The notes beneath the pieces are model-generated. The model saw nothing but the letters and a program-made list of their open reading frames with translations. It was not told the origin of the DNA and did not search any database. This document shows, piece after piece, positions 504-18,206 of a stretch of 20,379 nucleotides of DNA. Each line of letters opens with the position of its first letter. Position 1 is the stretch's first letter. The position numbers were made by a program, and so were the translations under genes. This DNA comes from a virus, in the IMG/VR virus record IMGVR_UViG_3300044613_002271, positions 1 to 20,379 of that record. One strand, written 5' to 3'.

Positions 504-1768
504 GCCAGCCTCCCCAGCTCCAGCCGGGGGCCGGCGACGTGCATTGCCCGCAGCCCGCCGGCCGGATCGTAGATGAAGAGCTCCATCGCCCGCCGGGCCC
601 CGACGAAGCCGCTGGCCGCGTGCCAGTCGTCCGCCGGCCCGAGGCTCGGGGCGATCCGCACGAGGACGCCGTCGATCGTCTCGATCGGCCGCTGCCACTC
701 GGCCGCCTGGTGGTGAAGGTGACCGGTGTGGACCTCGCGGTAGGGGCTCGCGGCCCACGCCGCGGCCGCCTCGTGGGCCATGAGCTGCGGAAGCCGCCGC
801 TTCGCCCGGTGGCCGTGGACGAAGCCCAGCAGGTTCCGGCCGTGGGTCAGGTACTTCCGCGGCGTGTAGGTGCCGTCGACCGTCACCCGCTTTGATCGGG
901 CGTACCGCTCGACCGCGATCCGGTGGAAGGCCCAGGTCAGGGTCTCGTCGTGGTTCCCGTTGACGACCAGCACGTCGGCCGGGGCGACCATGGACGCCGT
1001 GTCTATCACGCCGACCAGGGCGTCGGTGCCGACGCTGATCATCTTCTGGAGCCGGCCGTCGCGCTCCAGGGGCGTGCCGCTGGTCGTCGTGCCGCCCGGG
1101 GTGTCGTAGTGGAACAGGTCGCCCAGGCCGGCGACGGTGATCCGGCCGGGGGCGTACTCGGTGGCCGCGTCGAGCAGCTCGGCCGAGGCCTCGCGGACGA
1201 GCCGGGCCGCGATGTCGAGGTCATAGTCGGCCTCGCCGGTCGAGCGGCCCCAGGCGTACTTTCCGAAATGGGTGTCGGCGACGACCAGAACGGCCCACGG
1301 GCGATCCTTGACAGTATTGGTCAAGGCGCGGCCGCGTCGGACTTTCGCGATTCGCGAACTGCGAAGGTGTTTCCATTTTCCAGAATCTGGAACACGTCGC
1401 CGGATCGTGTCGCCGGCGGCGGCGATCATCGCCTCGACCGCCTCGGCCACGCTCGGCCCGGCCTTCGGGCGGAGCCGGACGAACACGCGGAAGAGCTCGG
1501 TCACGACCGGCTGGCCCGTCTCGCGGTCCGCGGTGAGCCCTTCCCACTTCGTCGCCTCGCTCGCCGCGACCTCGAACCGGGTCAGGTCGGCCTCGATGTG
1601 GGCGAGGAGATCCTCGACCGTGCGGATCGTCCGCGACACGCTGCGGGCCTCCACGGCATCGCCGGTGGCCTTCTTCGTGACCTCCTCGATCGTCAGGCCG
1701 TCGCCCCCGGCCGCCTTCGCGGCGGCCTTGCCGGCGACCCTGTCGGCTAATCTCGCCGCGCGAGCCAT
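500..1768 (-). CDS. Calcineurin-like metallophosphoesterase with N-terminal helical region
   Basis: The 422-residue protein has the full set of metallophosphoesterase motifs in order: ADTH (D165, H167), GLGDLFHYD (D217), NGNHDE (N272, H273, D274), VHGH (H318, H320) and TGHLHH (H350, H352). These residues bind two metals and hydrolyse phosphomono- or phosphodiesters. The substrate cannot be told; phage members often sit beside DNA-metabolism genes, and here a dNMP kinase follows with an ATGA overlap. Residues 1-120 are helical and polar without a recognised family. Residues 125-157 form a basic linker with codon usage unlike the rest (see the inverted repeats at 1306-1392). The start overlaps the previous gene by 22 bases. 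The first residues, RLADRVAGKAAAK, resemble the start of the upstream 80-residue protein. Confidence 0.85.
   Translation of the reverse strand: MARAARLADRVAGKAAAKAAGGDGLTIEEVTKKATGDAVEARSVSRTIRTVEDLLAHIEADLTRFEVAASEATKWEGLTADRETGQPVVTELFRVFVRLRPKAGPSVAEAVEAMIAAAGDTIRRRVPDSGKWKHLRSSRIAKVRRGRALTNTVKDRPWAVLVVADTHFGKYAWGRSTGEADYDLDIAARLVREASAELLDAATEYAPGRITVAGLGDLFHYDTPGGTTTSGTPLERDGRLQKMISVGTDALVGVIDTASMVAPADVLVVNGNHDETLTWAFHRIAVERYARSKRVTVDGTYTPRKYLTHGRNLLGFVHGHRAKRRLPQLMAHEAAAAWAASPYREVHTGHLHHQAAEWQRPIETIDGVLVRIAPSLGPADDWHAASGFVGARRAMELFIYDPAGGLRAMHVAGPRLELGRLA
1306..1326. repeat. Inverted repeat 1 inside the metallophosphoesterase gene
   Basis: The arms ccttgac and gtcaagg are perfect 7-base complements separated by 7 bases. 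The repeat lies in the coding sequence for the interdomain linker and is the first of three inverted repeats with centres about 34-35 bases apart. It may be an operator-like site or RNA structure, or chance; function is not shown. Confidence 0.5.
1344..1358. repeat. Inverted repeat 2 inside the metallophosphoesterase gene
   Basis: TTCGCGA and TCGCGAA are perfect 7-base arms around a single central base. It has the same 7-1-7 geometry as the next repeat, whose centre is 34 bases away. It is coding sequence, so any regulatory role would have to overlap the protein-coding one. Confidence 0.5.
1378..1392. repeat. Inverted repeat 3 inside the metallophosphoesterase gene
   Basis: TTCCAGA and TCTGGAA are perfect 7-base arms around one central base. 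On the minus strand the core reads AGATTCTG, eight bases also present in the gap elements upstream of the portal and capsid genes. Function is unknown. Confidence 0.5.
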
Positions 1769-1989
1769 ACGCGTAGCCCTTGGGGTCCGCAGAGCTCGAT
1801 CCCGTCGGCGGCCGCCTCCTCGATCAGCAGGTCCGCGAGGGCCGACGCCGACCCGAGGCCCCCGGCCTGGAACCGGCGACGGACCTCGAGGAGCTCGGCC
1901 TGGTGCTCGGGCGAGAGGCGCGAGAAGAACCCGACATGGCGAACCGGCTTCGCCCTGGCCCGCTCCGCGACCCGATCCGCGAGTGACAT
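1747..1989 (-). CDS. Small conserved-looking phage protein of unknown function (80 aa)
   Basis: I do not recognise a named family. The ATG at 1989 is chosen because GGAGG lies just upstream and because the longer in-frame extension to 2043 is low-complexity and would run back over the stop of the preceding gene. The 80-residue product is mostly helical. A middle segment (FSRLSPEHQAELLEVRRRF) precedes a stretch ending CGPQGLRVWLARR that could be a small helix-turn-helix-like unit. Its first residues (SLADRVAERARAK) resemble the start of the metallophosphoesterase encoded next, with which it overlaps by 22 bases. The pairing suggests a shared process, but none can be named. Confidence 0.65.
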   Translation of the reverse strand: MSLADRVAERARAKPVRHVGFFSRLSPEHQAELLEVRRRFQAGGLGSASALADLLIEEAAADGIELCGPQGLRVWLARRD

Positions 1990-2039
1990 GCAGCCTCCAT
2001 GCCGATGGTCCGTCGAGTCTCGCGGGCCGGCCGGGCGAG

Positions 2040-2333
2040 TCAACCTATCCCCAGGTGGTCACGCCCCCAGTCGTTCAGGGCCTCCTTTCGCTCCTCACAC
2101 CCGCAGGGACCGCCGATCACGGCGGAGACCCGCTCGGGCGTGATGCCGACCGCCGACAAGCCGGCGGCGACCATGTCGCCCAGGCCGAGCCGGGGGCGCG
2201 GCGAGGGGGCTGCGTAGTCGAACACGACCGGCGGGCGTGTGGTGGACGCGGGGCAGTTGCGGCGGAGGTCGCGACGCTCGGACGCGAACCCGCACTCGGG
2301 ACACTTCCCGCTCGAAAAGTCGCAGTCGCTCAT
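2040..2333 (-). CDS. Small cysteine-rich protein, probable metal-binding (97 aa)
   Basis: The ATG at 2333 overlaps the stop of the 272-residue gene as ATGA, which decides the start; the longer frame reading back inside that gene is spurious. The N-terminus has C4, C11, C14 in the order CDFSSGKCPECGF, plus C27, consistent with a zinc knuckle. The C-terminus has CGCEERKEALNDWG. A short 'CGC..R...LN' ending is, from family knowledge, common among small proteins at the distal end of phage structural operons, with no established function. The middle is proline-rich. It could be a tail-tip accessory or a regulatory zinc protein. Confidence 0.7.
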   Translation of the reverse strand: MSDCDFSSGKCPECGFASERRDLRRNCPASTTRPPVVFDYAAPSPRPRLGLGDMVAAGLSAVGITPERVSAVIGGPCGCEERKEALNDWGRDHLGIG

Positions 2334-3148
2334 ATATCGAACACGTTGCGGTCGACGCCGTCGCTGTAGTGTGCGACCACGGAGTTTATGACGAGCGTCG
2401 CGGCCGACTCTGCGACCTGACCGTTCGGCCCCGCGGAGTTGTACGGCGGCGAGGCATACGCCGCGACCCATCCAGGCAATCCCAGGCGACTGGTCTGCCA
2501 TGTCGCAGGTATGAACGGAGACGGCAGAGGAGACGACTGCGACTGGCCGTTGATCGAATCGCTGGGCCGATTGCCGTAAGAGGCGTAGGTCGTGTGGTCC
2601 GGGAGAGCCTGGCATCCAGACTGCCCAGGGACGAGCACTCGTTGCCGGCAATACGTCACGATCGAGAGAACGGTGTCGTACTGAACCGGCAGCGATTCGA
2701 GCTCCGCTTTCGTATACGCCGCCGGGGCCGGCGGGTTGTTACAGTTGATGAACGGCGACGTACTGCCCCTCACCCCTGACTGCAAGCCATTCACGCCGAC
2801 AGATATTCGCGCAAGTTCGATGCAAAGGTTCGTTTGCAAGAGCCCTGGGATCTGGAAGGCCGCAAGGATGTCCACGGAGATAGATATGAAGCGCGAGAAG
2901 TAGCCCCATTTTCGCTGTGAGAACTCAGTCAGCGAGTAGACCCCAGACGACGGGGCAGACCGTAGCGCGCCCGTTTCCCATGTGTTCGGCTGAAACGGAC
3001 ACGTCCCGTTGTAGCCCGCAGTAAACCAGGCGTCGCCGCCCCACCCGGTGCAGGTAATATCCACGTCTATCGTGGTCGGGTAGGGATTCCCGTCCTCGCC
3101 CGTGATCGTCGGGCATGGGCAACACGGCGAGCACGGGAGGAGCGTCAC
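2330..3148 (-). CDS. Unassigned distal tail-region protein, cysteine-rich N-terminus (272 aa)
   Basis: Translation begins at a GTG three bases after the stop of the 113-residue gene. The first residues include LLPCSPCCPCPT, five cysteines within 13 residues, and more cysteines follow along the chain (for example TCTGWGG and YCRQR). The rest is rich in Ser, Pro, Asn, Gly and aromatics, as in extracellular beta-structured proteins. There is no signal peptide or clear membrane segment. Its place between tail-tip candidates suggests a tail fibre, tip or receptor-binding protein. No family was recognised. Codon choice is noticeably less GC-biased than in the head genes. Confidence 0.65.
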   Translation of the reverse strand: MTLLPCSPCCPCPTITGEDGNPYPTTIDVDITCTGWGGDAWFTAGYNGTCPFQPNTWETGALRSAPSSGVYSLTEFSQRKWGYFSRFISISVDILAAFQIPGLLQTNLCIELARISVGVNGLQSGVRGSTSPFINCNNPPAPAAYTKAELESLPVQYDTVLSIVTYCRQRVLVPGQSGCQALPDHTTYASYGNRPSDSINGQSQSSPLPSPFIPATWQTSRLGLPGWVAAYASPPYNSAGPNGQVAESAATLVINSVVAHYSDGVDRNVFDI

Positions 3149-3151
3149 GCG

Positions 3152-3493
3152 TCAGCACTCCGCCGCGATCAGATACCAGTACCCATTCCCGCCGCGGGCG
3201 AGCATCACCCACTTACCGCCTGCGACGTTCGCGAACTTGTTCACGCAGTTCGCGAGCGTCTGCCCCGTGGTCTGGGTCTCGTTCGGAGGCGTCCCGCTTT
3301 CCCAGACGTTGATTGTCGCCAGCGTGCCCTTGTTCCACACGGTCCCTGTCCTCCCGAGCCGCACGGGATCGCCGTCGTCGCCGCCCTGGCGGAACATCAC
3401 CGCGGACTGGTCGCGGTTCCCACGCTCGTACGCGCGGGTCGCGGCCGCCATGCGACGCGCTGCGTCTTCGGTGAGTCTTACGGTTCGTGCCAT
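3152..3493 (-). CDS. Small tail-tip region protein ending WYLIAAEC (113 aa)
   Basis: The start ATG shares its A with the stop of the upstream gene (TGATG), giving MARTVRLTEDAARRM as the N-terminus in preference to a longer frame inside the neighbour. A helical, charged N-terminal part (residues 1-35) is followed by a beta-rich part with GTVWNKGTLATINVW and a C-terminus GGKWVMLARGGNGYWYLIAAEC. I recall similar C-termini in unannotated proteins of phage tail regions, but not a function. Its position between the 300- and 272-residue proteins suggests a tail-tip or baseplate accessory. Confidence 0.65.
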   Translation of the reverse strand: MARTVRLTEDAARRMAAATRAYERGNRDQSAVMFRQGGDDGDPVRLGRTGTVWNKGTLATINVWESGTPPNETQTTGQTLANCVNKFANVAGGKWVMLARGGNGYWYLIAAEC

Positions 3494-4395
3494 CAGAGGA
3501 TCGTCGGGGTCCCGAGGGCCGTCGCCCAATTTGCGGTCGCGTACAGATCGACGCCGGCTCCGCCCTTGATCACGCTCGGGGCCTGGCCGGCGTCTTTCTT
3601 CGTGCCGTTGGTGTTCAGCGCCACGGGCTGCTTCACGGGCTTATTGTCGTTACCCATGATCACCCGCTTTTGCCAGATGGGGCCGTTGTATAGCTCCATA
3701 AATCCGACATCCCACGGCATCGCCTTCCAGGTGTCGGGCTCGTATCGGAACTCCCACCGGCTCTCGATGAACTCCAGCGTCCCGGCGTCGTCGTCCCCGT
3801 CGAGCCTAGAAATCGACTGCTTTCTCGCGCTCTTGAAATATGCCTTGTAAGTCTTCGCCGCCCCGCCGGCCCAGGTCCCGGAGTTCACCTTTCCGGCATA
3901 CGCCACGATGTCGGCCTGGAGCGTTGCCTCGCTTTCGTAATACTTCGTCAGCGTCCAGCTCGTCTCCTCGCGCTCTTTCTCCAGACCTTCGAGCGGATCG
4001 CCGGCCGCGTTCGTGATCGTGGCCCCGCTGTTGTCGGTGAACGCCGGGACGGTCGTCGTGCCGCCGGACCGCTCCCACACATCCTCCGGGATGCCGTTTT
4101 CCCTCATCACCTTATTCGGCGGCGGAATGTAGTAGTTGATTGTCAACAGCCACCGCATACCGTCATCGGTCTCGGGGGCCAGTTCGAGCTCTAGGGCCTT
4201 CAGCTCGGAAAACTCGGGGTGTGGTGAGCCCCAGGTGATCCCCATGGTCGCGGTGACGCCGCCGATGATCTCGGCCTCGGTCGTCAGCGGTGAGTCGACG
4301 CGAATCGTCCACTTTCGGACCGCCCGCATGGACTCTCCGAACCTGCCCGACACGCTGGTTCCGCGAACCACTCGATCGTAGGAAACCCAGGCCAT
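3493..4395 (-). CDS. Probable distal tail / baseplate hub protein (300 aa)
   Basis: This gene starts three bases after the tape-measure stop, the place where siphophages usually encode the distal tail protein that starts tail assembly. The 300-residue product is beta-rich with many aromatic residues (FRYEPDTWKAMPWDVGFMEL near residue 225) and a conserved-looking end with GNDNKPVKQPVALNTNG around residue 250. It has no signal peptide or membrane segment. The role rests on position and composition; I cannot name a family. It overlaps the next gene by one base (TGATG). Confidence 0.6.
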   Translation of the reverse strand: MAWVSYDRVVRGTSVSGRFGESMRAVRKWTIRVDSPLTTEAEIIGGVTATMGITWGSPHPEFSELKALELELAPETDDGMRWLLTINYYIPPPNKVMRENGIPEDVWERSGGTTTVPAFTDNSGATITNAAGDPLEGLEKEREETSWTLTKYYESEATLQADIVAYAGKVNSGTWAGGAAKTYKAYFKSARKQSISRLDGDDDAGTLEFIESRWEFRYEPDTWKAMPWDVGFMELYNGPIWQKRVIMGNDNKPVKQPVALNTNGTKKDAGQAPSVIKGGAGVDLYATANWATALGTPTIL

Positions 4396-9828: not shown

Positions 9829-11052
9829 TCAGGAGGCGGCCTTCGCGAGCCGGGCGACGAACTCGGGGGCGTGGTTCGCCACGCCGAACCGGGTGTTCGC
9901 GACGTACAGGACCTGCCGGTTCCGCATCAGGACTTCGCGGCCCGCCTCGATCTCGAGGCCGGTGTCCTTCAGGCCCACCGCGGTCGACATCGCGTAGTCG
10001 CCGTAGAGGGCCAGCGTGGTGGCGGGGAGGCCCTTCACGATGTAGACCGGGGCACCGAACACCGTGGGAACCACGCGGCCGCCGCCGACCGTGAGGGTCG
10101 TCTGCTGCGAGCTCCAGATCTTCATGAGGTCGACGTAGCCGGCCCGCGAGCAGACCCACGAGCTGGTCCCCATCACGGTCTCGTCGACCTTGCCGACCAC
10201 GTCGGCGAGGTTCGCGAGGGTCGTCGCGGCGTTGGCCGCGACGGTGATGGTGTTCCCGGCCGCGACCGCACCGGCGAGGCCGGTCACGGTCGGGTTCGAG
10301 GCCTGGCCCGCGAGCCAGAGGGCGTCGAACCGCTGGGCGTAGGCGAGCGAGAACCGCTCGGCCACGAGGCCCGCGATGTCGAGCGGGCTGTCCTCGATCA
10401 GCGAGCGACTGATCGCGACGGAGGCCCGGATCTCGTGCATCGTCAGGCTCGCGACCGAGGACACGAAGTCCTGATCGGTCGTCGGCGTGCCCTCGGCCAC
10501 GATCGCCGCGGTGGCGTCGCCGACCTTCGGAAAATCGATCTTTTGGCCGCGGGGCCGGACGACCGTCGCGAGCTGGAGGGCGACCGAGGCGTACTGGAGC
10601 CGGTTGACGATCGCGTTGTACAACTCGGTGTAGACGTACTCGGCCCCGATGCCGTTGTAGGTCGGCGAGGTCTCGCCCATCGCCCGGACTTCGCCGGTGC
10701 CGACGGCCTTCAGGTACTCGCCGACGGCCTGGGCCGCCTTCCGCGAGCTGAAGAGCTTCACGCCCGAGCGAACGTCGGGGGTCTTGCCCTCGGGCTCGTC
10801 GGCCGTCTCGGGCTTCGGCGAGCTGGGCGCGGTGCCCGTCACGGCCCGCAGGCTCGCGAGCCGGTCGTCGAGGGCCCGCTCCGCGGCGGATTCCTTGCCG
10901 ATGTTGTCGGCCTTCTCGCCGAGGGCGGCGAGCCGCTCCTCGATCCGGGTCCGCTCGGCGTCGTCGGCCGGCTCGAGGGCCCGGAGGCTCGTGATCTCGG
11001 CGGCGACCTTGGCGGCTTCGTCCTGGAGGCGGGCGAGCTTCGGCGACGGCAT
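9829..11052 (-). CDS. Major capsid protein, HK97 fold, with N-terminal delta domain (407 aa)
   Basis: I chose the ATG at 11052 (MPSPKLARLQDEAAKVAAEI), which has AAGGG a few bases upstream; a GTG at 11097 would add 15 residues. Residues 1-75 form a charged coiled coil, the scaffolding delta domain normally cut off by the prohead protease. A Ser/Pro/Glu linker follows, then the capsid body with VVRPRGQKIDFPKV, AAIVAEGTPTTDQDF and SVAISRSLIEDSPLDI, typical of HK97-fold capsids. Near the end, VFGAPVYIVKGLPATT and YGDYAMSTAVG match the family's 'llG.PV......P......~GDf' block. It forms the icosahedral shell. It is unusually far from its protease gene (4.5 kb). Confidence 0.92.
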   Translation of the reverse strand: MPSPKLARLQDEAAKVAAEITSLRALEPADDAERTRIEERLAALGEKADNIGKESAAERALDDRLASLRAVTGTAPSSPKPETADEPEGKTPDVRSGVKLFSSRKAAQAVGEYLKAVGTGEVRAMGETSPTYNGIGAEYVYTELYNAIVNRLQYASVALQLATVVRPRGQKIDFPKVGDATAAIVAEGTPTTDQDFVSSVASLTMHEIRASVAISRSLIEDSPLDIAGLVAERFSLAYAQRFDALWLAGQASNPTVTGLAGAVAAGNTITVAANAATTLANLADVVGKVDETVMGTSSWVCSRAGYVDLMKIWSSQQTTLTVGGGRVVPTVFGAPVYIVKGLPATTLALYGDYAMSTAVGLKDTGLEIEAGREVLMRNRQVLYVANTRFGVANHAPEFVARLAKAAS

Positions 11053-11112
11053 GGGGAGTCCCTTCGTGTTCGTGGCGGTGTCCTTACCGCTCGTCACGAT
11101 ATGACCGCCCGC

Positions 11113-11448: not shown

Positions 11449-11780
11449 GTTTCGCTCCTGCTGTTCAGCCACCGGATCACCAGGGCCTGGACGATCGCCG
11501 AGATCGCCCAGACGAGGACGAGCGTCGTGAAGGCCATCCCGCAGTTTTCGGCGTAGACGGCCCGGACCCGCTCCTCGATCCGCCGGCGGATGCCGCCGGG
11601 GGCCGGGATCCCGTCGGGGCCGGCGGCCCGGAGCTCGCCCTCCATGGCCGCGATCTGCGACAGGGCGACCCGGACGATCGCGTCGCACCGCTTCCGGCCC
11701 AGGAGCCGCCGCCGCATCGGCCGATCGCCGAGGGCCCGCCAGACGGCCTCGCGGGCCTGGTCGAGCTCGAGGGGCGTCAT
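11445..11780 (-). CDS. Small protein with C-terminal membrane anchor (111 aa)
   Basis: The ATG overlaps the stop of the trypsin-like gene (ATGA). The 111-residue product has a basic helical N-terminal part (MRRRLLGRKR at residues 22-31), a middle with RIEERVRAVYAENCG, and one C-terminal hydrophobic segment at residues 82-103 (MAFTTLVLVWAISAIVQALV), ending with a short charged tail. It would sit in the inner membrane with most of the chain in the cytoplasm. It pairs with the next gene, whose product has an N-terminal span, and both adjoin a secreted protease. A holin or antiholin role is possible but unproven. Confidence 0.66.
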   Translation of the reverse strand: MTPLELDQAREAVWRALGDRPMRRRLLGRKRCDAIVRVALSQIAAMEGELRAAGPDGIPAPGGIRRRIEERVRAVYAENCGMAFTTLVLVWAISAIVQALVIRWLNSRSET

Positions 11781-12601
11781 CGCGAGGCCTCGCAGACCGA
11801 GCACGCCGCGCGGGGGCCGGCGACCGTCGAGAGGAACGCGGCGACCCGGGTCGAGCAGGATCCGATCGTCCGGCCCTCGCGCTCGCCGAACAGCACGCCG
11901 GCGAGCTCGCCCTCGGCGTTGAACATCGGGCCCCCGGAGTCGCCCTGGCGGGCGGTGCCCTTCATCTCGACGAACTGCCGGGGGTGGGACTTCGTGGGCG
12001 AGAGGTAGTCGGTGACCGGCCCGGTCTGCTCGAGGTACTTCCCCGGGCCATAGCCGGCGATCGTGATCGGGTCGCCGAGCCGGGGCGCGGTGGCGGCGAT
12101 CGTCACCGGCGCGGCCTTCGGCCTGACGACTGACAGGGCCGCGAGGTCCCACGCGTCATCCCACGCGACGACCGTCCCCTTCGAGGTCGTGCCGTCGGGC
12201 CACGAGACCATGATCCCCTGCCGGTGGGTCCGGGCGACGTGCCAGTTCGTGAGGACGATCCCGGTCGAGCCGCTCGCCTGGACGAGGACGCCGGACCCGT
12301 AGATCCGGCTCGGGCCGTCGGCGGCCGCGATCCGGCAGACCACGGGCCGGGGGCGGCCGCGGGCGGGGGCCGCGGGGGCCGACTCGGCGGCGGCGACGAC
12401 ATCGGCGGAGGCCCGGCAGACCGCCCCCGCCGGGGGCGGCGGCGGAGCCGGGGGCGGATCCGCGACGGTGCCCGAGCCGCAGCACACCGGGCACGGGTAG
12501 TGCATCGGGCCCGGGCCGACCAGGCGGTCGCCCTGGCAGTTGTCACAGTCGGCCGCGAGGGCCGCACCGGCGAGGGTCAGCCAGACGAGTAGGGATCGCA
12601 T
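11777..12601 (-). CDS. Secreted trypsin-like serine protease with DnaJ-like cysteine region (274 aa)
   Basis: A signal peptide is clear (MRSLLVWLTLAGAALAA, cleaved near residue 17), so the enzyme acts outside the inner membrane. Residues 19-45 hold CDNCQGD and CPVCCGSG, resembling half of a DnaJ CxxCxGxG zinc finger; then comes a Pro/Ala linker. The trypsin-fold domain spans about residues 85-260 with the full triad: H121 in LTNWHVA, D152 in AWDLAAL and S222 in GDSGGP. It resembles HtrA/S1C-type proteases but no PDZ domain follows. It sits between a papain-like peptidase and two membrane proteins. The substrate is unknown; host envelope proteins or virion proteins are both possible. Confidence 0.85.
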   Translation of the reverse strand: MRSLLVWLTLAGAALAADCDNCQGDRLVGPGPMHYPCPVCCGSGTVADPPPAPPPPPAGAVCRASADVVAAAESAPAAPARGRPRPVVCRIAAADGPSRIYGSGVLVQASGSTGIVLTNWHVARTHRQGIMVSWPDGTTSKGTVVAWDDAWDLAALSVVRPKAAPVTIAATAPRLGDPITIAGYGPGKYLEQTGPVTDYLSPTKSHPRQFVEMKGTARQGDSGGPMFNAEGELAGVLFGEREGRTIGSCSTRVAAFLSTVAGPRAACSVCEASR

Positions 12602-12604
12602 CGG

Positions 12605-13480
12605 TCATCCGGCGGGCCGGCTCCAGTCGTCGGGGAGGGTCATGGAGGCGATCGCGAACGAGCCCTTCCACGCCGAGCGGGCGGTCCGCTCGGAGTCGAA
12701 CCGGGTCACGTCATAGGAGTCCGGGTAGGCCATGAGCCGTTGATCGGCGATCCACCGCGCCCACGGCACGGCATGCCCGCGGCGGCCGACGCTCACGACG
12801 AGCCCATGTAGGACGCAGCACACCGCCTCCTCGTAGGACTTCGGGAAGATCACCTCGAGGGGCCGGAAGTGTCGGGCGGTCTCCTGCCAGCCGTCGGGGA
12901 ACCGCGAGACGGAGACCCACGGCCCGCCCGACTGGTTCGCGTTGCCGCGGCCGCTCGTGCCCTGGAGGACGTGAGGGAGCCCGTACTCGCGCGGCTGCAG
13001 CCGGTCGGGGAGCATGCCGCGACGGACCGCGATCTCCAGGACCTGGCGGACGTTCGCGCCACCCCACTGCCCGGGGTTCGCTTCGGCATAGACGGAGAGC
13101 GGCGACAGCCAGACCGACCCGTAGACGGTGGACTCGGGGTAGCGGTAGCCGGCCCGGGGCCCGTCGCGGAACGACACGCCCCGCGCGCGGTTCCGCGCGG
13201 CCTCGGCGTTCGCCCGTAGGGAGTGACAGGTACACTCGTGGGTCGGGTTCTGGTTCGTGTACCGGTCGATGTAGTTCAGCCCCCAGAGGCCGTGCCGATC
13301 GTTGTCGGCGGCGCGGTCGGCCCAGTCCTCGGGCTCGATCCACATCGCGTCCGGGAACTCGCGGGCCGCGTCGCCGCAGGCATCGCGGAGAGCGTCGGTC
13401 GTGTCCTCGGCCGCCAGGTGGTCGGGGTAGCCGTCGTGTTCGTCCGGGAACACGTCGATCAGCCGCGGGTCGATCGTCAT
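12605..13480 (-). CDS. Papain-like (C1-type) cysteine peptidase (291 aa)
   Basis: The ATG at 13480 overlaps the previous stop (ATGA); the longer frame upstream is spurious. The papain layout is recognisable: Q77 followed six residues later by C83 in NQNPTHECTCHS, the same spacing as papain Gln19-Cys25; then WLSPLSVYAEAN and WGGANVRQVLEIAVRRGMLP, matching the papain 'LS.q.lvdc...GG....A..y....Gi' region; then H236 in RRGHAVPW. The third catalytic position may be D254-S255 in YPDSYD rather than the usual Asn-Ser. There is no signal peptide. It could process virion proteins or assist lysis. Activity is not certain because the Asn is replaced. Confidence 0.7.
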   Translation of the reverse strand: MTIDPRLIDVFPDEHDGYPDHLAAEDTTDALRDACGDAAREFPDAMWIEPEDWADRAADNDRHGLWGLNYIDRYTNQNPTHECTCHSLRANAEAARNRARGVSFRDGPRAGYRYPESTVYGSVWLSPLSVYAEANPGQWGGANVRQVLEIAVRRGMLPDRLQPREYGLPHVLQGTSGRGNANQSGGPWVSVSRFPDGWQETARHFRPLEVIFPKSYEEAVCCVLHGLVVSVGRRGHAVPWARWIADQRLMAYPDSYDVTRFDSERTARSAWKGSFAIASMTLPDDWSRPAG

Positions 13481-13872
13481 GGAACGGCCCTCACGATCTG
13501 CTCGGCGTCGTCTGGGGCCTTCACGATCGCGAGGACCGTCGAGCCCGACAGGACGACAAGGGCCGGCAGGCCGTCGGCCTTCGCGGCCGCGACCGCCTGG
13601 CGGAACTGCTCGGGGATCGTGCCGGCCCCGTTGGTGGTGTCGGCCTCGAGGAGCGTCGCGACGATCTGCCGCTCCCGGTTGAGCCGGTTCAGGCCGACCG
13701 TGACGCCGACCGGGACCGCGGTGTGGTCCTTCTCGTAGACGTAGACGGCCGCCGTCGCCGGGCCGGGGGCGGGCGCGGTGATCGACGGGACCGTGGGCCA
13801 CGGGATCGCGGGGAGCGGCGGTAGACCGCCGAGCAGGACGAGCCCGGCGGCGAGCAGGACGAAGGGCCTCAC
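13477..13872 (-). CDS. Secreted protein of unknown function (131 aa)
   Basis: It starts at a GTG overlapping the preceding stop (GTGA). The N-terminus RPFVLLAAGLVLLGGLPPLP looks like a signal peptide or anchor, followed by a Pro-rich spacer. The mature part alternates strands and helices: AAVYVYEKDH, a helix LNRERQIVATLLEAD, a helix IPEQFRQAVAAAKADG, a strand LPALVVLSGSTVLAIVKAPD and a final helix. This order is compatible with a thioredoxin-like fold with Pro before the strand, but there is no CxxC motif, so redox activity is unlikely. It is encoded just before the papain-like peptidase (ATGA overlap). Confidence 0.65.
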   Translation of the reverse strand: MRPFVLLAAGLVLLGGLPPLPAIPWPTVPSITAPAPGPATAAVYVYEKDHTAVPVGVTVGLNRLNRERQIVATLLEADTTNGAGTIPEQFRQAVAAAKADGLPALVVLSGSTVLAIVKAPDDAEQIVRAVP

Positions 13873-15609: not shown

Positions 15610-16596
15610 TCAGACGTGGGCCTTCATTCGGGCGACGGCGGCCGCGGCTGCGGCCCGGGCACCGGCCAGGGACGAGACCCGCAGGGCCCGGGTCGGCTTC
15701 GCGTCGGTGGCCGAGACGATGCCCTCGGGGTAGTCGTCGACCCACACGTCGACCGCCAGGCCGGCGGCGGCCGCGGCGTCACGCTTCTGGGTGTTCGCCC
15801 CGCAGAGGATCAGGTCGGAGACCTCGAGGTCCGCGAACGCCAGCCGCAGCTCCTCGCGGTTCGCCTCGTCGTTCTCGCGCCGCGAAATGCAGACCACGCG
15901 GTTCCCGGCGGCCGTCGCCATGCCGACGAACGACCGCCAGAGGCCGGGGGCCGCGGTCCAGGTCCGATCGTAGTCGAGCGAGATCACGAGCCCGCGGCCC
16001 TCGCTCCTGTGCTGGACGAGCCCGCGGGCCGCCTTCCATGCCGACAGGGAGCGAAGGCCGACGGAGCTATTCGGATAGGCGGCGTGGGTCACCGGCGAAA
16101 CGTCGAAGATCGCCGCCTCGGTGATCGTGCGGGTCACGTTCCCGGCGGGATCCTCGTCCCACGACTCGCCCCGCGCTTCGGTGAGCGAAAACGCGAACGA
16201 CGACCCGAAGATGTACCGGTCGCGAATCAGGGGCACGACCTCGGCCGTCGTCGGCGTGCCGACCGGCGGGGTGGCCCGGAACACGAGACCCTTGTCGGTC
16301 TCCTGGATGTCGAGCGTGCCGTTGGTGGTCCGGCCGAGGACCGCGGAGTCCTGGTGGTTGTACTTCGCGACCACGTCGGCCTTGCCTCGCGGGTCGTTCG
16401 GTGCCCGGTCGAGGTACTTCCGGAAGGCCCCCGGCATGAAACGTTCCTTGAACCCGCCGAGGTCCACGGACCACTTGTTCCATGGCGGGGCCATACCGAC
16501 GATCACGGGCCGGCCGTCGTCGCGGGTCTCCAGGCGGAGCTCGACATCGGGGTCCGCAGACTGCGACAGGTAGCGCGTCTCGATCTGGTTCGACAT
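15610..16596 (-). CDS. Prohead protease fused to a C-terminal HAD-like domain (328 aa)
   Basis: The ATG at 16596 is two bases after the portal stop, with GGGGAG in between; the longer frame within the portal gene is a shadow. Residues 1-180 are an HK97-type prohead protease: PVIVGMAPPWNKWSVDLGGF, ERFMPGAF, H81 in KYNHQD, the serine region YIFGSSFAFSL (S132/S133) and AAIFDVSPVTHAAYPNSSV. It would trim the capsid delta domain. After a short basic linker, residues 203-292 form a HAD-like domain: motif I LDYDRT (D208, D210), motif II VCISRR (S238), K271 and motif IV WVDDYP (D287, D288). Such small HAD-like proteins occur alone in phages; the fusion to the protease is unusual. Confidence 0.88.
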   Translation of the reverse strand: MSNQIETRYLSQSADPDVELRLETRDDGRPVIVGMAPPWNKWSVDLGGFKERFMPGAFRKYLDRAPNDPRGKADVVAKYNHQDSAVLGRTTNGTLDIQETDKGLVFRATPPVGTPTTAEVVPLIRDRYIFGSSFAFSLTEARGESWDEDPAGNVTRTITEAAIFDVSPVTHAAYPNSSVGLRSLSAWKAARGLVQHRSEGRGLVISLDYDRTWTAAPGLWRSFVGMATAAGNRVVCISRRENDEANREELRLAFADLEVSDLILCGANTQKRDAAAAAGLAVDVWVDDYPEGIVSATDAKPTRALRVSSLAGARAAAAAAVARMKAHV

Positions 16597-16598
16597 GC

Positions 16599-18206
16599 TC
16601 ACTCCCCTTCGGTCTCGATCGGCGTGGCCGACAGTTCCGATACCCGCTTCCCGACCGTGAACTCGGTCGGCTCGTCGTCGAAGTACACGCGGACGCTCGC
16701 GGCCGGCTCGGCCTCGGTGGCGGTGATCGCGTAGGCCGAGCCCTCGACGCCGAGGACGCCGTCGGTCATCAGGTGCTCGATCACGCCTTCGCCGCCGGCC
16801 CAGTACACGCGCTGCCCGAGGCGGAAGCCGCCGGCCTCGGTCACGTCGTCGCCCGGGGAGTCGTCGGTCGTCTCGCCGGTGTCGTCGGCCTCGTCGTCCG
16901 GCGTGTCGTCTGCCGGCTCGGTGACGGCGGCGGGCGGCTGGCCTCCGGCCGCCCCGGCCTGGGCGGCCGCGGCGTCGAGCGTCGAGAACCCGAGCTGGAC
17001 GAACGTCTGGTTCGCCGCCGGCGTGTCGAGCAGGTCGAAGTCTTCGCGGTCGCGGATCTCGTTGGGCGTGATCGCCCCCATGTTCCAGAGGCTTTGATAG
17101 AGGGCCGCCCGGCCCGCGGTGTCGGCCCGCAGGATGCCGCGGGTGTCGAGCTTCGCGTAGACGTTCTCGCCGTAGACCGGCTGGAGCGCCATGTCCACGG
17201 GCGACTCCATCCGGCGGGCCCACGGGAGGAGGCACCAGACCTGGGCGGAGAGGTGCTCCTGCTCCACGGTCGAGTATTTGTTCATCTTCGAGTCACCGAG
17301 GAGCGTCGAAGGCACGCCCCAGTGACGGCATACGTCGGGCAGGATCGCGTCGCGCAGCTCTTGGAACTGCGAGGCCTCCATGCTGTTCGACTCGATCGGC
17401 TTGAGCCGTGTCTTTTTGGGCAGGACCGCGGCCTTCCCGCGGTTCTCGGCCCCGCCGTAGGCCTGGTGCAGCATGTCCCGCAGGGCGTCGACCGCGGCGT
17501 CGGGGACCTTCTCGTCCGTCTCGAGGACCATGTCGGGCCGGGCGGAGTTGCTCCAGAACGCGGTGGCCGCGGTGTCGAGCTGCCTCGCGAGGTTGATACT
17601 CGTCGCGTTCATCTCGGCCGGGGCGTGGCCGACGATGCCGTTATCCGAGATCCACCGCCAATGGAGCACGGGACCGGGGATCGGCTCCCATTGGCCTTTC
17701 TCGGTCCAGAACTTGTAGGTGAGCGAGTAGTCGACGGCCGACTGTTCGACCTTCACTCGGGACGGGTGGAGGGGGATCAGTTGGGTCATCCACCCGCGAT
17801 CGCCCGAGACCACGCGGGCGTAGCCGTTGCCGTGGAGGGCGGTCCAGTAGGCCTGGAGGACGTAGAAGTCCCAGGCCGACTGCCAGTTGTTTGGACGCTT
17901 CCGCAGCGTGTAGGCGCAGGGAAGGTCGGCCTTCTCGCGGCGGCCGTCCGGCCGCTCCTGCATGATCTGCATCGGGCAGATGCCGACGGCCTGGGCGATC
18001 CACCGGACGACCCCGAAGATCGCCGACACGCGGACCGCGGTCTCGGGGCCCACGACAGACGGCAGGATGTCGCCCCACGTCCCCGGCACCGGGAGCGAGG
18101 TCCGTCGGATCGAGATCACGCGCGGGGCCGCGGCGGCCTTCGCCGGGGTCCGGCGGCGGCTGCCGCGGCCTCCGGGTGTGGCCGGGCGTTTCTTGGGGCT
18201 GGGCAT
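16599..18206 (-). CDS. Portal protein, HK97 family, with acidic linker and C-terminal SH3/tudor-like domain (535 aa)
   Basis: Residues 40-415 form the portal: SAIFGVVRWIAQAVGICPMQ, YTLRKRPNNWQSAWDFYVLQ, LHGNGYARV, IPLHPSRVKVE, and HWGVPSTLLGD with the following YSTVEQEHLSAQVWCLLPWA, all typical of HK97-like portals. The dodecameric ring admits DNA and binds terminase. After an Ala/Gly/Pro stretch comes an Asp/Glu/Thr-rich linker (428-458), then residues 460-525 (FRLGQRVYWAGGEGVIEHLM, YAITATEAEPAASVRVYFDD, VGKRVSEL), which look like a small SH3/tudor-like barrel of the DUF2945-like kind. Typical HK97-family portals end near residue 420-430, so this extension is an extra. The N-terminal 30 residues are basic. 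Confidence 0.9.
   Translation of the reverse strand: MPSPKKRPATPGGRGSRRRTPAKAAAAPRVISIRRTSLPVPGTWGDILPSVVGPETAVRVSAIFGVVRWIAQAVGICPMQIMQERPDGRREKADLPCAYTLRKRPNNWQSAWDFYVLQAYWTALHGNGYARVVSGDRGWMTQLIPLHPSRVKVEQSAVDYSLTYKFWTEKGQWEPIPGPVLHWRWISDNGIVGHAPAEMNATSINLARQLDTAATAFWSNSARPDMVLETDEKVPDAAVDALRDMLHQAYGGAENRGKAAVLPKKTRLKPIESNSMEASQFQELRDAILPDVCRHWGVPSTLLGDSKMNKYSTVEQEHLSAQVWCLLPWARRMESPVDMALQPVYGENVYAKLDTRGILRADTAGRAALYQSLWNMGAITPNEIRDREDFDLLDTPAANQTFVQLGFSTLDAAAAQAGAAGGQPPAAVTEPADDTPDDEADDTGETTDDSPGDDVTEAGGFRLGQRVYWAGGEGVIEHLMTDGVLGVEGSAYAITATEAEPAASVRVYFDDEPTEFTVGKRVSELSATPIETEGE

Follow-up and report, generated by a model that had tools for sequence, protein, structure and literature searches.

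A prohead protease permanently joined to a HAD-superfamily domain in uncultured phages, and the possible carriage of that domain into the phage head

We analyzed a 20,379-nt stretch of viral DNA (IMG/VR record IMGVR_UViG_3300044613_002271, positions 1 to 20,379; hereafter the window), in which an HK97-type prohead protease and a domain of the HAD superfamily are encoded in a single gene. The open reading frame (ORF) lies on the minus strand and runs from an ATG at 16596 to a stop codon at 15612-15610. In the predicted protein, an S78 protease (amino acids [aa] ~20-184) is followed by a helical linker, which leads to a compact HAD domain (aa ~202-294) with an alanine-rich tail behind it. The stop codon of the portal gene (16601-16599) directly precedes the ATG, and a GGGGAG stretch is found upstream of it. 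Such an arrangement fits coupled translation, and the portal and protease-HAD genes are probably translationally coupled. The features that concern this gene are the following:

16599..18206, minus strand: portal gene, upstream of the protease-HAD gene (Pfam Phage_portal, E 1.5e-72)
15610..16596, minus strand: protease-HAD fusion ORF, 328 aa plus stop (ORF reading; 107 distinct fused HAD sequences among relatives)
16045..16536, minus strand: S78/HK97 prohead protease domain, about aa 21-184 (Pfam, NCBIfam, T4 gp21 fold, conservation)
15994..16044, minus strand: linker, about aa 185-201 (helix at 181-198; breakpoints clustered at aa ~174-190)
15715..15993, minus strand: HAD core, aa ~202-294, with D208xD210xT212, S238xR240, K271 and W285xD287D288xP290 (phrog_4256/4919, invariance, VIA-align)
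15613..15678, minus strand: C-terminal Ala-rich helix, aa ~307-328 (kept in fused forms; absent from nearly all aligned free HADs)

The fusion is a recurrent feature of natural phage genomes. A whole-protein scan of IMG/VR recovered 74 loci, most of which carry both domains in one frame, and eight viral scans together with one scan of cellular genomes yielded 107 distinct HAD sequences fused in frame behind this protease. These confirm the single uninterrupted frame that a first-pass annotation had read from the window alone, and they answer its call to look for the same two-domain order elsewhere. Nearly all of the fused sequences come from IMG/VR, from many samples, and are free of stops. 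One fused copy was found in a Planctomycetaceae metagenome-assembled genome (MAG; a 40-kb contig, L076), the only cellular relative found; a 392-genome sample of its phylum contained that MAG and one weak free match. With 107 distinct in-frame sequences from many samples, a sequencing frameshift or misassembly that joined two genes was rejected, and we consider its probability negligible.

Within the fused group, a protease lacks the HAD domain only where a contig end truncates it. When relatives of a divergent protease (L264) were sought, a sister S78 group (L346-L354) of normal size (about 197-211 aa) and without HAD came up, and for this reason the extension appears to be a derived trait of a single lineage. 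Using tblastn, we found matches to the whole protein in 501 of 50,697 phage records, none of them covering 80%, while the window HAD alone gave nothing in 50,697 phages and 72,556 plasmids. When more divergent free relatives were used as queries, 334-426 phages with free HADs were detected. As these phage records gave no fusion, the joined form seems, within the limits of tblastn, to be confined to uncultured phages. Our literature search returned no protease-HAD fusion, which is weak evidence of absence since subscription journals were mostly outside its reach. On the sequence evidence, the uncultured phages whose prohead protease is permanently joined to a HAD domain form a large group.

The gene is best explained as encoding a working HK97-type prohead protease. 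Residues 22-183 match Pfam Peptidase_S78 (PF04586; E 2.1e-29), the TIGR01543 model of NCBIfam is matched at 63.7 bits against a cut-off of 59, and phrog_80, 'head maturation protease', is matched at E 7e-38. In addition, VIA-align places the T4 gp21 protease on aa 2-172 of our structural model (Z 11.3, 143 residues, root-mean-square deviation [rmsd] 3.1). The first-pass annotation had described a complete HK97-type protease with H81 and an S132/S133 region. Family and fold are borne out, and H81 and S133 are each invariant (58/58 fused homologues); S132 did not stand, as this position is Ser or Ala in the same set, so that S133 is most likely the nucleophile. The window protein shares with HK97-type prohead proteases (PF04586; TIGR01543; phrog_80) the protease domain, the invariant His and Ser and a gene position between portal and capsid, and differs from them by its extra C-terminal HAD enzyme domain.

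The HAD superfamily is defined by the motifs DxD, S/T, K and DD (as listed in PMC5899202). The corresponding positions noted beforehand in the window protein (LDYDRT, S238, K271 and WVDDYP) all hold in an alignment of 70 homologues (58 fused and 12 free): D208, D210, T212, R240, K271, W285, D287, D288 and P290 never vary, and every sequence has S or T at position 238. The HAD half matches phrog_4256 (E 5e-16) and phrog_4919, both labelled 'unknown function', and falls outside all Pfam and NCBIfam families, a result that held in a scan of 44 homologues. Naming the domain by sequence was abandoned, since the Pfam, NCBIfam and PDB searches gave matches that were below significance or spurious, the lone PDB match with a good E-value being a designed protein.

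An AlphaFold2 model built on the 70-sequence alignment, which replaced a poor model from a shallower alignment (predicted local distance difference test [pLDDT] 53.5), has a mean pLDDT of 83. The HAD core lies mostly at 85-92, and values of about 55-59 are found around aa 171-200. The Rossmann-like core expected of a HAD protein is present in this model, and for aa 202-294 the best VIA-align match is the phosphatase domain of T4 Pnkp (Z 9.0, rmsd 2.7, 93 aa), followed by Nir2 (8.3), Pnkp1 of an RNA repair complex and lipin (7.6). Many other HAD phosphatases match at Z 6-9, a range in which values under 8 can reflect a common arrangement. Because motifs and predicted fold agree, membership of the HAD superfamily is secure; the nearest subgroup is not. 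With hhalign, S238 and R240 are set on S211 and R213 of T4 Pnkp, the latter of which we take to be essential in that enzyme; this alignment covers motif II only and is not significant (p 0.077). Foldseek, run with the entire model, found no PDB entry at E below 0.001, and the 50 matches listed for a viral library were all prohead proteases, capsid proteins or entries without a name.

The two halves of the protein have separate histories. In several pairs of relatives the HAD domains are 94-100% identical and the proteases only 53-59%; others have the reverse pattern (in L034/L050, 98% identity in the protease and 59% in the HAD). Nucleotide identity jumps at aa ~174-190, in the linker, in at least eight pairs; most of these pairs with enough flank have their other breakpoint in the portal C-terminal tail, about 255-340 nt ahead of the protease gene. 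Protease and HAD trees share 8/54 splits, and each data set rejects the tree of the other half (log-likelihood differences of 1202 and 2873, in approximately unbiased tests with 2000 replicates, fewer than recommended). Judging from these breakpoints and incongruent trees, the portal tail and protease are often swapped as a unit, with the HAD left in place beside the downstream genes. The co-exchanged portal tail corresponds to 16602-16964 (minus strand) of the window, hinting at an interaction or substrate relation between it and the protease. The reading frame across the protease-HAD joint is retained despite this exchange, and we infer selection for keeping the two joined. Among the members listed, the linker contains no conserved internal start codon; an internal translation start yielding free HAD was rejected on this ground, and the HAD is probably made only as part of the fusion.

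Conservation also bears on whether the HAD is catalytic. The mean column majority is 0.81 in the HAD, 0.81 in the Ala-rich tail and 0.70 in the protease, and approximate median ratios of nonsynonymous to synonymous substitution (0.32, 0.23 and 0.48, respectively) come from divergent, mosaic pairs and are readable as 'well below 1' only. With its catalytic residues under strong purifying constraint, the HAD is likely an enzyme and not an inert appendage. As an alternative, the HAD could be a non-catalytic appendage acting in assembly, or a chaperone-like or size-determining one, as the first-pass annotation had allowed; attachment to assembly proteins and the conserved Ala-rich tail of the fused forms would fit such a role. 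We nevertheless disfavour it as unlikely, since all four catalytic motifs are fully conserved whether the HAD is fused or free, the HAD half and the protease move separately, and the sister S78 group manages at normal size without it. The C-terminal helix itself, STLAGARAAAAAAVARM-like in sequence, shows strong conservation among the fused proteins and might serve as a docking peptide.

The same HAD enzyme domain is also found grafted on a portal protein. In L340, a portal of 601 aa (1762-3567; Phage_portal, E 5e-111) holds the HAD at aa 414-516 (phrog_4256, E 1e-15), with a TUDOR-like domain after it in the C-terminal part; the next gene encodes an S78 protease without HAD that bears an N-terminal phrog_2859 domain. 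In two further sets of genomes (L072/L074/L075 and L146/L147), a free HAD gene starts at the portal stop codon, ahead of the capsid genes, and is separated from them by a probable protease/scaffold gene (read by eye; no Pfam or PHROG match). In L072 and L146 it is the portal C-terminus that carries the phrog_2859 domain. Prohead proteases and the C-terminal ends of portals both point into the prohead, and so delivery to its interior may be what the HAD carriers have in common. The occurrence of the domain on both protease and portal suggests that these phages deliver the HAD into the assembling head. Carriage into the procapsid, as proposed in the first-pass annotation, thus gains independent support from the portal-borne copy and from the genes between portal and capsid; encapsidation itself, like release by self-cleavage, retention in virions, action in the newly infected cell, phosphatase activity and substrate, is something we infer.

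We give about an even chance to the HAD being an active phosphomonoesterase that is carried into the prohead by its covalent attachment. A capless HAD-superfamily phosphomonoesterase would ride as the C-terminal cargo domain of the prohead protease. Since the protease is a component of the prohead, the HAD would enter the head together with it during assembly. Once there, the HAD would either stay and act at the portal/DNA-end region or be freed by processing of the linker. Such release is plausible in the model, where the protease adjoins the low-confidence segment (pLDDT about 55-59, aa 171-200). The enzyme would then hydrolyse the phosphomonoester of a nucleotide or nucleic-acid end, in the manner of the T4 Pnkp 3'-phosphatase, either inside the filled head or immediately after ejection. 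By analogy, a nucleotide or nucleic-acid end would most likely be the substrate, in view of the resemblance to T4 Pnkp and of the nucleotide genes that lie next to some free relatives. T4 Pnkp (pseT) is likewise a phage enzyme, is by a narrow margin the best structural match and shares the S-x-R motif II, with a sequence match that is not significant; it has an N-terminal P-loop kinase and no protease, whereas the N-terminal half of the window protein is the S78 protease. A broader proposal, which we hold only tentatively, is that protease and portal C-terminus are interchangeable carriers loading enzyme domains (HAD; TUDOR-like, phrog_2859) into the head, with the HAD serving as a virion phosphatase on the packaged or freshly ejected genome.

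Several observations weigh against carriage of an active enzyme into the head. During maturation the protease may digest the HAD together with other internal proteins, and the sequence similarity of the HAD to named HAD families is below threshold. Furthermore, homologues in cultured phages are free and mostly located outside head modules, as in those inspected: in PVP-SE1 the gene lies beside that of a MazG-like pyrophosphatase, in phiEco32 near the DNA polymerase, and in a Vibrio phage record it is the first gene. In L189 a free copy adjoins ThyX- and ribonucleotide-reductase-like genes (read by eye). Such non-head neighbours suggest a cytosolic nucleotide role, in which the HAD would be a nucleotide-metabolism phosphatase of the infected cell, the fusion would only ensure co-expression and entry into the head would be incidental. 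We regard this as rather unlikely, as the closest HADs occur linked to the protease, to the portal or to a gene coupled with the portal, a bias that a cytosolic enzyme does not need. Moreover, head proteins are made late and nucleotide enzymes usually early.

The small free HADs of phrog_4256/phrog_4919 (phiEco32, PVP-SE1, rV5-like, Campylobacter and PAK_P4-like phages) have DxDxT, T-x-R, K and WxDDxP in common with the window protein, and differ in being separate genes that lack the conserved Ala-rich tail and mostly lie away from the head module. An uncultured Pseudohongiella genome has an ORF (L078, 7715-8576) with a tandem pair of HADs from this family.

A viral HAD protein with a link to nucleocapsid assembly is known from baculoviruses, in which the motifs of 38K (Ac98) are needed for that process (PMC5899202). 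By comparison, the phage HAD might act in assembly by removing phosphate from a head protein or a DNA-condensing protein, in the way that 38K acts on P6.9, and a chain of the AcMNPV nucleocapsid entry 8i8b, which may be 38K, matches our domain at Z 6.4. We consider this role very unlikely: many other HADs score a Z close to that of the 8i8b chain, and neither a phosphorylated head protein nor a kinase is known in these phages. Baculovirus 38K also belongs to an unrelated virus and has no protease fusion. Polyvalent proteins, in which enzyme domains are joined to virion or assemblin-like protease domains and are thought to be packaged, carry the assemblin-like peptidase at the C-terminus (PMC5512222), whereas the window protein has two domains with the protease at the N-terminus.

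Prohead proteases are usually seen as disposable maturation tools, and the one described here stably carries a second enzyme domain with intact catalytic residues. If the HAD does reach the head, these phages would have a natural covalent route for loading cargo, and there would be a first functional handle on phrog_4256/4919, found free in several hundred named phages (tblastn, free members as queries).

Three other genes of the window were annotated:

9829..11097, minus strand: HK97-family major capsid protein (Pfam Phage_capsid, E 1.7e-25)
11777-12601, minus strand: trypsin-like serine protease with a GDSGGP motif (Trypsin_2, E 1e-19)
12605-13483, minus strand: protein with an ECTCHS...GHAVPW pattern reminiscent of papain-like cysteine peptidases (unmatched in Pfam and PHROG)

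The major capsid protein has an N-terminal charged helical region that, from its sequence, is likely a delta domain. The trypsin-like gene is situated between the protease-HAD and capsid genes, with a relative at the same place in the Planctomycetaceae contig (L076), in which the ECTCHS...GHAVPW-pattern protein is also conserved.
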